Made by a program: the position numbers and the translations under genes. From assembly GCA_009693055.1 (NCBI GenBank), contig SHYA01000001.1, positions 248,001 to 312,000 of the forward strand: a stretch of 64,000 bases of DNA, given 5' to 3'. Each line of letters starts with the position of its first letter. Positions within the stretch are counted from its first letter, which is position 1. The notes under the pieces are model-generated. The model did no database searches, was not told where the DNA came from, and saw nothing but the letters and a program-made list of their open reading frames with translations. Below, one piece after another: positions 59,042 through 64,000 of this stretch. This DNA comes from Dehalococcoidia bacterium (GTDB taxonomy: Bacteria; Chloroflexota; Dehalococcoidia; Lucifugimonadales; SHYT01).

Positions 59042-59905
59042 GTGCGCATTGACGCCCACGCCCACTGCTTCCCCAAGCGCTTTCTCACGCAGCGGAGCAG
59101 CCTGCTCGCCCGCGACGCGACCTTCGGGCTGCTGTACCGCGACGCGAAAGCCCGCATGGCGACCGCCGAGGATCTGGTCGCGGCGCTGGACGCCGCCCAG
59201 GTGGACGCGGCCGTGGTCGCTGGTATCGGCTGGACGGACCGGGAGCTGGCGCGGGAAGCGAACGACGCCGCGCTGGAGGCCGCCTCGCGCTACCCTGGCC
59301 GCCTCATCCCGTTCTGCTCCGTGAACCCCGCGTGGGGCGACGCGGCCCTGCGGGAAATGGAGCGGTGCGCTAAGGCGGGCACGCGTGGCGTCGGCGAGCT
59401 ACACCCGGACACGCAAGGGTTCCGCCTGGACGACATCCCGCTGCTCACTCCTTTCGCCGGGCTGGTGCGGCGGCTTGGCCTGGTAGTTCTGACGCACACC
59501 TCGGAGCCGGTGGGCCACCAGTACCCCGGCAAGGGGCGCACGACGCCGGAGCAGGTAGTGGCGTTCGCGCAGGCGTTCCCACAGGTGCGCCTTGTCTGCG
59601 CGCACTGGGGCGGCGGCCTCCCCTTTTACGCGCTGATGCCCGAGCTCGCCGCGACGCTTCGCAACGTGTACGTGGACTGTGCAGCCTCGCCGTTTCTCTA
59701 CCGGCCCCAGGTGTTCTCCACGGTCGCCGGCCTGCTGGGCGAAGACAGGGTGCTGTTCGGTTCCGACTTCCCGCTGCTGGGCTACGAGCGCGCGTTGGCC
59801 GACCTCCAGGCGGGCGGTCTCACCCTCAAAGCACGCCGGAAGGTGATGGGCGGGAATGCCGCGCGGCTGCTTGGCCTGTCCCCGAGGGGTCGCCGTGGCG
59901 CGTGA
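59042..59905 (+). CDS. Amidohydrolase-2 family TIM-barrel hydrolase
   Basis: The 287-aa protein starts MRIDAHAHCFPK with the HxH metal motif on strand 1; LTHTSEPVGH, CAHWGGGLPF and LFGSDFPLLGYERAL supply the further His and Asp ligands. Such enzymes are decarboxylases, lactonases or TatD-like hydrolases; the substrate is unknown. GTG 59042 is chosen because the fold begins there; no ribosome site precedes it and CAATAAT lies just upstream, so the mRNA may be leaderless. It overlaps the next gene by 11 nt. Confidence 0.85.
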   Translation: MRIDAHAHCFPKRFLTQRSSLLARDATFGLLYRDAKARMATAEDLVAALDAAQVDAAVVAGIGWTDRELAREANDAALEAASRYPGRLIPFCSVNPAWGDAALREMERCAKAGTRGVGELHPDTQGFRLDDIPLLTPFAGLVRRLGLVVLTHTSEPVGHQYPGKGRTTPEQVVAFAQAFPQVRLVCAHWGGGLPFYALMPELAATLRNVYVDCAASPFLYRPQVFSTVAGLLGEDRVLFGSDFPLLGYERALADLQAGGLTLKARRKVMGGNAARLLGLSPRGRRGA

Positions 59906-60484
59906 TGGGGGCGGCGAGCCGGTCCGTGCGTTCATCGCGGTTGAGCTGTCCGAGGAGGTGCGGCGCGCCCTGGCCGACGTCCAGCGGGCGATGCATCGTC
60001 ATCGTCAGGCCCCTTCGGGCGTGAAGTGGGTGGCGCCGGAGGCGATGCACCTGACGCTCAAGTTTCTGGGCGCTGTCCCTGCCGCCTCCGTAGGGCTGGT
60101 TGCGGACGCCATACGCGAGGCCGCCCGCGGCGTTGCCCCCTTCCAGGTTACGCTGGGTAGCACGGGCTGTTTCCCCAACCCTCAAGCGCCCCGCGTCGTG
60201 TGGGTGGCCCTGACCGGCGAGGTGGAGCAGCTCGTCCGGTTGGCGCAGGCGATTGAGCGCGCCGTGGCGCCGCTGGGGTTCCCGCCGGAGGGACGGCCCT
60301 TCTCGTCGCACGTCACGCTGGGCCGCGCCCGCGATGGCCTCTCCGATGACGAGCGCCGCCGCCTCGCTCCCCGGCAGTACCGCCCGCGTCCACGCGCGTG
60401 GAGGCCGTCAGCCTCATGTGCAGCGTTCTGCGCCCCCAGGGGCCGGAGTACACAAGAATGGCGAGGGCACCGCTCAAGGGTTGA
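59895..60484 (+). pseudogene. thpR: 2'-5' RNA ligase (ThpR-like), frameshifted
   Basis: The GTG at 59895 opens a frame with both catalytic motifs of the 2H phosphoesterase family: HLTLKFLG and HVTLGRAR. After RRLAPRQYRP the frame enters foreign sequence. In the next frame, from about 60400, the family C-terminus VEAVSLMCSVLRPQGPEYTR is present and stops at 60484. A single-base loss (or 2-base gain) at about 60380-60400 therefore breaks the gene, unless it is a sequencing error. The intact protein would be about 195 aa. It acts on RNA 2'-3' cyclic ends in other organisms. It overlaps the amidohydrolase by 11 nt. Confidence 0.8.
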
Positions 60485-60491
60485 TCTTGCG

Positions 60492-60519
60492 TTGACAAAT
60501 CAGAGGGGAAAGCGATACC
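60492..60519 (+). promoter_or_regulatory. Promoter of the trp operon leader
   Basis: A perfect TTGACA (60492-60497), then 16 nt, then GATACC. It lies just before the T-box leader and just after the restored thpR stop. The -10 match is weak. Confidence 0.5.
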
Positions 60520-60529
60520 GTGAAAGGCA

Positions 60530-60876
60530 AAGCCCAGATCGGGACGAGTACGCCTTCAGCGGGGCCACAGAGAGCCGGGTAGTGGTGGGAACTCGGCGCC
60601 AGCGCAAAGGCCGAATGGACCCGGGAGCTTCAGCCCGAACGGGCCTTCGCCCGTCTTTCCTGGTCACGGCCAGGCCGGCGGCAAGGCGCAAGTAGGCGCT
60701 GACGGAGCGGGCACCGTTATTGCAGCCCTAGGTGGCTACTCCCGATGACCATCGGGACTCACCGAACAGAGGCCCACGCCGACCTCGCGGCAGGCGTAGT
60801 CCTTCCGTGGAAGGACAAAGGCTGGGCGAACAGGGTGGCATCGCGGGAAAACCCGCCCCTGATGGGGCGGGTTTTT
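60530..60876 (+). promoter_or_regulatory. T-box riboswitch, tRNA-Trp-type, upstream of trpE
   Basis: The order and wording of a T-box leader are all present: GGGACGAGTA (AGTA bulge, 60547-60550); an AGAGAGCCGGGT stretch (60569-60580) with GTGGTGGGAACTCGGC, the distal Stem I; a specifier GAATGGACC holding UGG (60616-60618), the Trp codon followed by A; a Stem III hairpin GTCCTT..AAGGAC (60799-60816); the T-box GGGTGGCATCGCGGG (60833-60847); and a terminator. In the T-box, UGGC would pair with the GCCA end of a tRNA whose discriminator is G, as in tRNA-Trp. Uncharged tRNA-Trp is expected to stabilise the antiterminator and turn on trpE. Confidence 0.88.
60850..60876 (+). terminator. T-box-controlled intrinsic terminator
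   Basis: The stem AACCCGCCCC/GGGGCGGGTT with loop TGAT is followed by TTTTTGTTTG. It directly follows the T-box sequence and competes with the antiterminator; 22 nt before the trpE start. Confidence 0.93.
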
Positions 60877-60897
60877 GTTTGTTTAGTGAGGAGCGTG

Positions 60898-62367
60898 ATG
60901 TACCACCCGACGCTGGAAGAGGTTAAACGGCTTGCGGGCCGGGGCAACCTGGTGCCGGTCTACCGCGAGCTGAACGCCGACCTGGAGACGCCCGTCTCCG
61001 CGTACCTGAAGGTCGCGCGGCCGCCGTACTCCTTCCTGCTGGAGAGCGTGGAGGGCGGCGAACGGATCGCACGGTACAGCTTCATCGGCACCGAGCCGTC
61101 GTGGGTGCTCAAGACGGGGCCGGGCTGCCCGGGCGGCGCGATTGACCCCCTCGTGCCGCTGCAAAAGCGACTGGCGCGCTACAAGCTGGTGCCCGTGGCG
61201 GGGCTTCCGCGCTTTCACGGCGGCGTGGTCGGTTACCTGGGGTACGACGCGGTGCGGTACTTTGAGCCGCGCGTTCCAAAGCCATCCAAAGACACCCTCG
61301 GCCTGCCAGAGGCGGTGTTCATGCAGGCGGACACACTGCTGGTGTTTGACCACGTGCGCCACAAGATCAAGGTGGTGAGCCACGCAAAGCTGGACGGCGA
61401 CACGGACAGGGCGTACGCGCGGGCCGTGGCGCGTATTGAGCGGGTGGTCAAGCGGCTGGAGCGCCCCTTGCGCTTGTCCAAACGCCCAGCACTGCCAGGT
61501 AATCCCGCTCATCCTTCGACAAGCTCAGGACGAGCGGAGCACAAGTCTAACTTCACCCGCGAGGGTTACCACTTGGCCGTGCTGCACGCCAAGGAGTACA
61601 TCACTGCGGGCGACGTCATCCAGGTGGTGCTCTCCCAGCGGCTGGAGCGTCCCACGAGCGCGGGCTCGCTGGACATCTACCGGGCGCTGCGCGCGATCAA
61701 CCCGTCGCCGTACATGTACCACCTGGCCCTGGACGACTTCGCCGTCGTGGGCGCGTCGCCGGAGCTGCTGGTGCGCGTGGAGGACGGGTTGGTGGAGAAC
61801 CACCCCATCGCGGGCACGCGGCCGCGCGGCCAGACAGAGGAGCGGGACGCAGCCCTGGAGCGCGAGCTGCGCGCCAGCGAGAAGGAGCGCGCCGAGCACA
61901 TCATGCTGGTTGACCTGGGCCGCAACGACATCGGCTGCGTCAGCCGGCCGGGCACCGTCAAGGTCACGCAGCTCATGGACGTGGAGCGGTACTCCCACGT
62001 GATGCACCTGGTCTCCCACGTGGAGGGGGGGCTGCGCCCGGAGCTGAACGCCTTTGACGCGCTCCGCGCCTCGTTTCCGGCGGGTACCGTGTCCGGCGCG
62101 CCGAAGATCCGCGCTATGGAGCTCATCTCGAAGCTGGAGGGCCAGGCCCGCGGCACGTACGCGGGCGCCGTCGGTTACTTCAGCTTCTCCGGCAACATGG
62201 ACACCGCCATCGCCATCCGCACCCTGGTGCTTAAGGACGGCGTCGCGTACATCCAGGCGGGCGGCGGCATTGTGTACGACAGCGACCCGGAGGCGGAGTA
62301 CCAGGAGACGCTGCAGAAGGCGCAAGCGCTGCTCCGCGCCGTGGCCCAGGCGGAAGAGGGGCGGTGA
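60898..62367 (+). CDS. trpE: Anthranilate synthase component I
   Basis: Converts chorismate and ammonia/glutamine to anthranilate, the first step to tryptophan. 489 aa from ATG 60898 with GAGGAG upstream; the track start 60745 lies in the T-box leader. The feedback-inhibition motif LLESVEGGERIARYSFIG is present near the N-terminus. The chorismate domain shows DVIQVVLSQRLER, HPIAGTRPRG, LVDLGRNDIG, FPAGTVSGAPKIRAMELI. A family C repeat is translated in frame (HPSTSSGRAE, about residue 205) in the linker before the chorismate domain. Confidence 0.96.
   Translation: MYHPTLEEVKRLAGRGNLVPVYRELNADLETPVSAYLKVARPPYSFLLESVEGGERIARYSFIGTEPSWVLKTGPGCPGGAIDPLVPLQKRLARYKLVPVAGLPRFHGGVVGYLGYDAVRYFEPRVPKPSKDTLGLPEAVFMQADTLLVFDHVRHKIKVVSHAKLDGDTDRAYARAVARIERVVKRLERPLRLSKRPALPGNPAHPSTSSGRAEHKSNFTREGYHLAVLHAKEYITAGDVIQVVLSQRLERPTSAGSLDIYRALRAINPSPYMYHLALDDFAVVGASPELLVRVEDGLVENHPIAGTRPRGQTEERDAALERELRASEKERAEHIMLVDLGRNDIGCVSRPGTVKVTQLMDVERYSHVMHLVSHVEGGLRPELNAFDALRASFPAGTVSGAPKIRAMELISKLEGQARGTYAGAVGYFSFSGNMDTAIAIRTLVLKDGVAYIQAGGGIVYDSDPEAEYQETLQKAQALLRAVAQAEEGR
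61510..61537. repeat. Family C repeat inside trpE
   Basis: ATCCTTCGACAAGCTCAGGA with flanking CGAGCGG; translated in frame between the N-terminal domain and the chorismate-binding domain, so the protein keeps its reading frame. Confidence 0.9.
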
Positions 62368-62368
62368 C

Positions 62369-62950
62369 ATGCTGCTGCTTATCGACAACTACGACAGCTT
62401 CACGTACAACCTGTACCAGTACCTCTCGGAGCTGGGGGCCGACGTCGTGACCGTTCGCAACGACCAGGCCAGCGTGGAGGAGATTGAGCGCATGGCGCCG
62501 GAGCGGATCGTCATCTCGCCCGGCCCGTGCACGCCGCGTGAGGCGGGCATCTCCAACGACGTTATCCTCCGGTTGGGACCGCGTATCCCTACGCTCGGCG
62601 TCTGCCTGGGCCACCAGTGCATCGGCTACGCCTTTGGCGCGAGGGTGGACCGCGCCGGCGAAATCATGCACGGCAAGACGTCGCTCATCCACCACGATGG
62701 GAAGGGCGTGTTCCGCGGCCTGCCCAATCCGTTTGAGGCGATCCGGTACCACTCGCTGGTCATCTACCCGGAGATGCTCCCGCCCGAGCTTGAGGTGACC
62801 GCGCGCACGGAAAGAGGCCTTATAATGGGCGTGCGGCACCGCAGGTTTCCTATTGAAGGCGTCCAGTTCCACCCAGAGTCCATTATGACCAGCGTCGGCA
62901 AAGACCTGCTCAGGAACTTCCTGGCGATCCCTGTCCCCGCCGCACAATGA
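62369..62950 (+). CDS. trpG: Anthranilate synthase component II (glutamine amidotransferase)
   Basis: 193 aa from ATG 62369. Class I GATase: LLIDNYDSFTYNLYQYL, PGPCTPREAG, the nucleophile GVCLGHQCIGYAFG, and the His/Glu of GVQFHPES. Supplies ammonia to TrpE; PabA activity with a PabB is also possible. It begins one nucleotide past the trpE stop. Confidence 0.96.
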   Translation: MLLLIDNYDSFTYNLYQYLSELGADVVTVRNDQASVEEIERMAPERIVISPGPCTPREAGISNDVILRLGPRIPTLGVCLGHQCIGYAFGARVDRAGEIMHGKTSLIHHDGKGVFRGLPNPFEAIRYHSLVIYPEMLPPELEVTARTERGLIMGVRHRRFPIEGVQFHPESIMTSVGKDLLRNFLAIPVPAAQ

Positions 62951-62983: not shown

Positions 62984-63238
62984 ATGGATATGCGGACACT
63001 GGTCAAGCCGCACAAGGAGACGACGCGGAGCCTGTCGCACCGCCCTGACGAGGTGCTGCTCCTGTGGTACGCCGACTTGGGCCTGAAAGTGGACGACGCC
63101 GGTCAGGTGGACTACCACTGTCCCCAGTGCGGCAAGCTCCAGAGGGCTCCGTTGGAGGCGTTCCTGTCCGTGGGCGACCGCCGTGACCCGCGCTGCAACG
63201 AGTGCTGGGGCAGCGCGGAGGAGCACGGCGGCGAGTAG
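62984..63238 (+). CDS. Small zinc-ribbon protein in the trp operon
   Basis: 84 aa with two CxxC knuckles: CPQCG (about residue 46) and CNEC (about residue 73), probably one zinc site. The N-terminal half is helical with a conserved-looking HRPDEVLLLWYADLG. I do not recognise the family. AAGAGGTGATG precedes the ATG; it lies 33 nt after trpG. Confidence 0.75.
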   Translation: MDMRTLVKPHKETTRSLSHRPDEVLLLWYADLGLKVDDAGQVDYHCPQCGKLQRAPLEAFLSVGDRRDPRCNECWGSAEEHGGE

Positions 63239-63291: not shown

Positions 63292-63525
63292 ATGCCCGTT
63301 AAAGCGTACATCCTGATTACGGTGGACGCCCTGCGCACCCGCGAGGTGATGGAAGTGCTGAGAAAGGACAAACGCCTCCACACTGTCAATGAGGTGCTCG
63401 GCCCGTACGACATCGTGGTGGAGATCGAGTCGGAGCAGCTTGACGACGTGACCAAGATCCTGCGCGAGGACGTGCGGCCCGTCTCCGGCATCCGCAACAC
63501 GCTCACATGCGTGGTCGTGCGCTGA
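63292..63525 (+). CDS. Stand-alone Lrp/AsnC ligand-binding (RAM) domain protein
   Basis: 77 aa from ATG 63292 (GAGAGGAG upstream). AYILITVDALRTREVMEVLR, VNEVLGPYDIVVEIES and the C-terminal VRPVSGIRNTLTCVVV fit the ACT-like RAM fold of Lrp/AsnC regulators, with no DNA-binding domain. Such small proteins bind amino acids and may modulate enzymes or full-length Lrp partners. Its place between trpG and trpD suggests a link to tryptophan sensing (inference). Confidence 0.85.
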   Translation: MPVKAYILITVDALRTREVMEVLRKDKRLHTVNEVLGPYDIVVEIESEQLDDVTKILREDVRPVSGIRNTLTCVVVR

Positions 63526-63612: not shown

Positions 63613-64000
63613 ATGATCCGTGAAGCCATCGACGCCCTCGTCTCCGGCCGCTCGCTCACCGAACGGGAGGCCGCATCCGTCATGCAAGAGATCATGACCG
63701 GCCAGGCCACGCCCGCGCAGACAGGCGCGTTCCTCACCGCGCTCCGCATGAGGGGCGAGACCCCTGAAGAGGTGGCGGGGATGGCGCGTGTCATGCGAGA
63801 AAAGGCGCTGCGCGTGGACGTCCCTGGCCCGCTGGTGGACGTCGTCGGCACCGGCGGCGATGGGCGCGGCACGTTCAACATCTCTACCGCCGCCGCGTTT
63901 GTGGTCGCGGGCGCCGGCGTGCGCGTCGCTAAGCACGGCAACCGCGCCGCCTCCGGCACATGCGGCAGCGCCGACCTGCTGGAGGCGTGCGGCGTCAAAC
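63613..64000 (+). CDS. trpD: Anthranilate phosphoribosyltransferase (partial, runs off the window)
   Basis: The first 129 codons. [20 protein letters not shown], the diphosphate/Mg-binding [18 protein letters not shown], and the conserved [19 protein letters not shown] (usual form KHGNR..SS.SGSAD; the Thr-Cys here is a small departure). Adds phosphoribosyl to anthranilate. Start ATG 63613 with AGGTGAAGAG upstream. Continues beyond 64000. Confidence 0.95.

Follow-up and report, generated by a model that had tools for sequence, protein, structure and literature searches.

The trp Locus and Its Leader

The window (the whole stretch of 64,000 nucleotides that was analyzed) ends within a tryptophan biosynthesis operon, the first gene of which is preceded by a long leader (Table 1). 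The trpE start codon is preceded by GAGGAG, which serves as the ribosome-binding site. It is followed by trpG, two small ORFs and trpD, with trpC, trpF and trpB beyond the window on the same contig (trpF was recognized by eye). The operon order is trpE-trpG-orf-orf-trpD-trpC-trpF-trpB, with a putative 3′ extent. The first-pass annotation had placed trpE-trpG-trpD under the leader. These genes are present, but the order was incomplete, as it omitted the two small ORFs between trpG and trpD and the trpC-trpF-trpB genes beyond. The trpS (G000:C5:51606-52625) and trpA (G000:C3:92736-93473) genes lie off the operon contig, and a genome-wide search found no RF00230 match at either gene.

Table 1. 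Coordinates of the leader elements and operon genes in the window.
Feature	Coordinates	Strand	Basis
−35 box TTGACA	60492..60497	+	Sequence
Weak candidate −10 TACCGT, 18-nt spacer	60516..60521	+	Sequence; inferred
Stem I, five helices, 21 Rfam pairs	60532..60628	+	RF00230 alignment, MFE of segment alone, covariation in 25 leaders
AGUA (AGTA) of specifier loop	60547..60550	+	RF00230 alignment, segment fold
AGAGAG, AG bulge side of Stem I	60569..60574	+	RF00230 alignment, segment fold
UGG specifier codon (Trp)	60616..60618	+	Position per RF00230 and specifiers of the genome's Leu/Ile T-boxes
Stem II with insert and Stem IIA/B element (ACGG...CCGUUA)	60629..60719	+	RF00230 alignment
Stem III, enlarged interior (GCCCA/UGGGC)	60772..60827	+	RF00230 alignment, MFE
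Antiterminator: 5 bp, 7-nt bulge UGGCAUC, 5 bp	60831..60861	+	Segment MFE −15.2 kcal/mol, canonical shape
T-box sequence GGGUGGCAUCGCGGG (GGGTGGCATCGCGGG)	60833..60847	+	RF00230 alignment, tRNA-Trp comparison
Intrinsic terminator, 12-bp stem and U tract (T5)	60848..60876	+	Fold −23.3 kcal/mol, terminator scan
trpE, anthranilate synthase component I, ATG 60898	60898..62367	+	TIGR00564, 564.5 bits
trpG/pabA-type glutamine amidotransferase	62369..62950	+	TIGR00566, 252 bits
84-aa ORF with CPQC...CNEC	62984..63238	+	Homologues in L158 and L160, 46% identical
77-aa stand-alone Lrp/AsnC ligand-binding (RAM) domain protein	63292..63525	+	PF01037, E 5e-8
trpD, cut by window end	63613..64000	+	TIGR01245

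The −35 box conforms to the consensus. In most of the relatives' leaders, TTGACA or TTGAC is found at a similar spacing before Stem I, and a −10 resembling CTATACT usually comes next. The first-pass annotation had described a consensus TTGACA promoter; this stands for the −35 box, but the −10 is poor and a promoter scan of the leader found no sigma-70 promoter at 9/12. The candidate TACCGT occurs at equal spacing in the closest relative (L155) too, and GATACC (60514-60519) is an alternative, likewise poor. The leader RNA would start near 60525.

The leader region is crossed by open frames. The longest ORF in the trpE frame starts at ATG 60745 and overlaps the 3′ part of the leader only, whereas Stem I is overlapped by the read-through frame of an upstream thpR-like ORF (59856-60695). 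The earlier description of a trpE ORF running through the leader is thus accurate for the 3′ part and not for Stem I. These frames could be taken to mean that the region is a coding extension of trpE or thpR with no RNA leader at all. This is almost inconceivable, as TrpE homology begins at 60898 with a start, MYHPTLEEVK, that is kept in relatives, the thpR-like frame is without homology after about residue 163, and the base pairs of Stem I covary, as described below.

Across 60300-60484, the thpR-like ORF (RNA 2′,3′-cyclic phosphodiesterase) seems to be frameshifted at the point where homology is lost. The likely C-terminus (VEAVSLMCSVLRPQGPEYTRMARAPLKG-stop) is in another frame, with its stop at 60482-60484. 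Judging from the reading frames, the shift may be real decay or an assembly error. With the C-terminus ending there, 60485-60897 would be an intergenic leader.

Identification of the Leader as a T-Box

T-boxes are RNA switches that sense tRNA charging and turn genes on when the cognate amino acid is scarce. The T-box family RF00230 matches the leader at 60526-60863 on the + strand, over model positions 1-219/219, with 65.8 bits and an E-value of 4.7e-14 in the local Rfam search (2.8e-14 in the genome-wide search). The first-pass annotation had named an RF00230 hit with UGG as specifier as its supporting check, and this is what the search returned. The default Rfam scan of the whole window at the gathering score listed no match at all, because the 65.8 bits of the leader lie below the gathering score of 93; E-value mode was used instead. 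All four T-boxes of the genome score below this threshold, the leader ranking third among them. For the leader, the E-value decisively outweighs the sub-gathering score. The default cut-off of Rfam often hides the GC-rich T-boxes of this lineage.

With a motif descriptor (AGTA..CAGNGA..GAA-codon..GGTGGNANCNNG, including the distances between its parts), a single site is found in the window and none in 100 simulated 64-kb sequences drawn from a first-order Markov model. The descriptor was composed after inspection of the sequence; the Rfam match serves as the independent test. The position of the leader, ahead of trpE at 60898, is that of a T-box leader, found before a biosynthesis, synthetase or transport gene. 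The elements named in the first-pass annotation, from TTGACA through to the terminator with T5, all lie where it had placed them and in the order that it gave.

The terminator ahead of trpE is a feature that other trp attenuators would likewise have, acting through a leader peptide with Trp codons or through TRAP binding. Such an attenuator in place of a T-box is exceedingly improbable given the full-length T-box match and the covariation, and the Rfam search of the leader gave no match to a Trp-leader family.

Specifier Loop and Fold of the Leader

The specifier codon follows GAA (60613-60615) and precedes A60619, with GAATGGACC spanning 60613-60621. In the RF00230 alignment, AGUA lies opposite GAA-UGG-A in the specifier loop, and in the minimum free energy (MFE) fold of the Stem I segment both strands of this loop are essentially unpaired. 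The alignment and the segment fold both place UGG within the specifier loop, in agreement with its proposed role as the Trp specifier. The Stem III-like hairpin noted in the first pass is also present. The canonical base of Stem I is absent from the MFE fold of the whole leader; segment folding was used as the informative alternative. A long, GC-rich leader that is folded without tRNA can miss this base.

The leader resembles class I of RF00230 in its specifier loop, AG bulge, Stem II, Stem IIA/B, Stem III, antiterminator and terminator. It differs in being GC-rich, in the long inserts of Stems II and III and in its sub-gathering score.

Match to tRNA-Trp and the Proposed Switch

The tRNA-Trp of the same genome has the anticodon CCA and the 3′ end CGCTCCT-G-CCA. 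Its discriminator is therefore G73, and its terminal GCCA is complementary to UGGC at 60836-60839, so that the variable base of the T-box fits tRNA-Trp as had been claimed. The 12-bp terminator hairpin folds at 60848-60875 and runs into the U tract. In the segment folds it shares 60848-60861 with the antiterminator, making the two hairpins mutually exclusive. As the terminator precedes the ribosome-binding site of trpE, control at the level of transcription is the natural reading.

In the proposed mechanism, the UGG specifier would pair with the CCA anticodon of tRNA-Trp. When this tRNA carries no amino acid, the GCCA at its free 3′ end would pair with UGGC in the antiterminator bulge and stabilize the antiterminator, which would block the terminator and allow the polymerase to reach trpE. 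Charged tRNA-Trp would be unable to stabilize the antiterminator, and transcription would end at the terminator.

The poor −10, the low Rfam score (third of the four in the genome) and the long inserts are what might be expected of a degenerate T-box that no longer switches, in which a weak promoter or the large inserts of Stems II and III leave the genes constitutive or shut off. Nonetheless, the key elements are all intact, the complementarity of antiterminator and terminator is kept, and inserts of a similar kind occur together with an identical UGG/UGGC in L155, the closest relative. Degeneration is thus very unlikely.

Relatives and Covariation

A trpE match was obtained in 50 genomes of the same order, and in 38 of them RF00230 is matched at most 5 kb upstream of trpE on the same strand. 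The other 12 have no listed upstream match under strict filters. At least one of these (G007, locus L169) carries UGG/UGGC 1.4 kb upstream of trpE, indicating that the strict filters lose some leaders. Some of the relatives' T-boxes adjoin trpE, and many lie about 1.1-1.3 kb upstream. At L174, the one such locus examined, trpS sits between the T-box and trpE (TIGR00233, 332 bits), which provides independent support for tryptophan. This locus has the specifier, T-box base and downstream trpE in common with the window, but the genome of the window carries its trpS on a separate contig. Across the relatives, UGG is accompanied by UGGC, or in a few leaders by UGGU.

For 25 Trp leaders, 94.9% of the cells in Stem I are paired, compared with 82.2% when shuffled and 29-57% when slid. 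Two-sided changes are seen at 16 of the 21 pairs (64 cells), the pairs being taken from the Rfam consensus. AGUA and AGAGAG are invariant in the aligned leaders. The relatives' leaders were gathered by a regular expression requiring AGTA, CAGNGA and GAATGG[AG], which misses other motifs; the invariance of these columns is therefore not independent evidence. The covarying pairs of Stem I fall outside the required columns.

In a quick survey of 80 named trpE loci, covering the 700 bases upstream of each, T-box cores turned up almost exclusively in records whose titles name Chloroflexi groups. The nearest named relatives of the window's trpE are from Chloroflexi and Dehalococcoidia MAGs.

Known Systems and Significance

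It has been reported that T-boxes of Dehalococcoides are tied to tryptophan biosynthesis, being located upstream of trpE and a trpB-like gene (Wels et al. 2008, PMC2494555), and a 2013 survey lists the Chloroflexi among the T-box phyla (PMC3766115). By their published description, Dehalococcoides CBDB1 and D. ethenogenes 195, also Chloroflexi, likewise have a Trp T-box upstream of trpE (PMC2494555), while the genome of the window is of a different, uncultivated lineage. Since trpE T-boxes of Chloroflexi were published in 2008, the leader is a further case of a known arrangement.

The full-length RF00230 match, the match to tRNA-Trp and the covariation among relatives bear out the original proposal of a tRNA-Trp T-box before trpE. 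With a probability of about 0.97, the leader is a canonical T-box of class I that acts on transcription, senses tRNA-Trp and controls the trpE-G-orf-orf-D-C-F-B operon. It indicates how an uncultivated bacterium probably controls its tryptophan synthesis.

The three other T-boxes of the genome serve as internal controls. One, with CUC, precedes the ilvB operon (ilvB...ilvC-leuA, with ilvC and leuA recognized by eye); the other two, each with AUC, precede ileS and cimA. All three have UGGU, which fits A73 of tRNA-Leu(GAG) and tRNA-Ile(GAT). They read Leu, Ile and Ile, as expected from the downstream genes.

Additional Features of the Operon

The 84-aa ORF has no match in Pfam or NCBIfam. Its CPQC...CNEC motif is zinc-ribbon-like, and it adjoins the RAM-domain ORF in L158 and L160 too. 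The 77-aa RAM-domain protein is encoded inside the trp operon and is without a DNA-binding domain. Among the loci compared, it has homologues in L158 and L160, where they are also downstream of trpE. It is conceivable, though doubtful, that two layered sensors serve the operon, with the T-box responding to tRNA-Trp charging and the RAM protein binding an amino acid. The protein may then act on enzyme activity or on expression. Within trpE, a palindromic repeat-like stretch, CTCATCCTTCGACAAGCTCAGGACGAGCGG, lies in frame at 61510-61542, between the two domains of the encoded protein.
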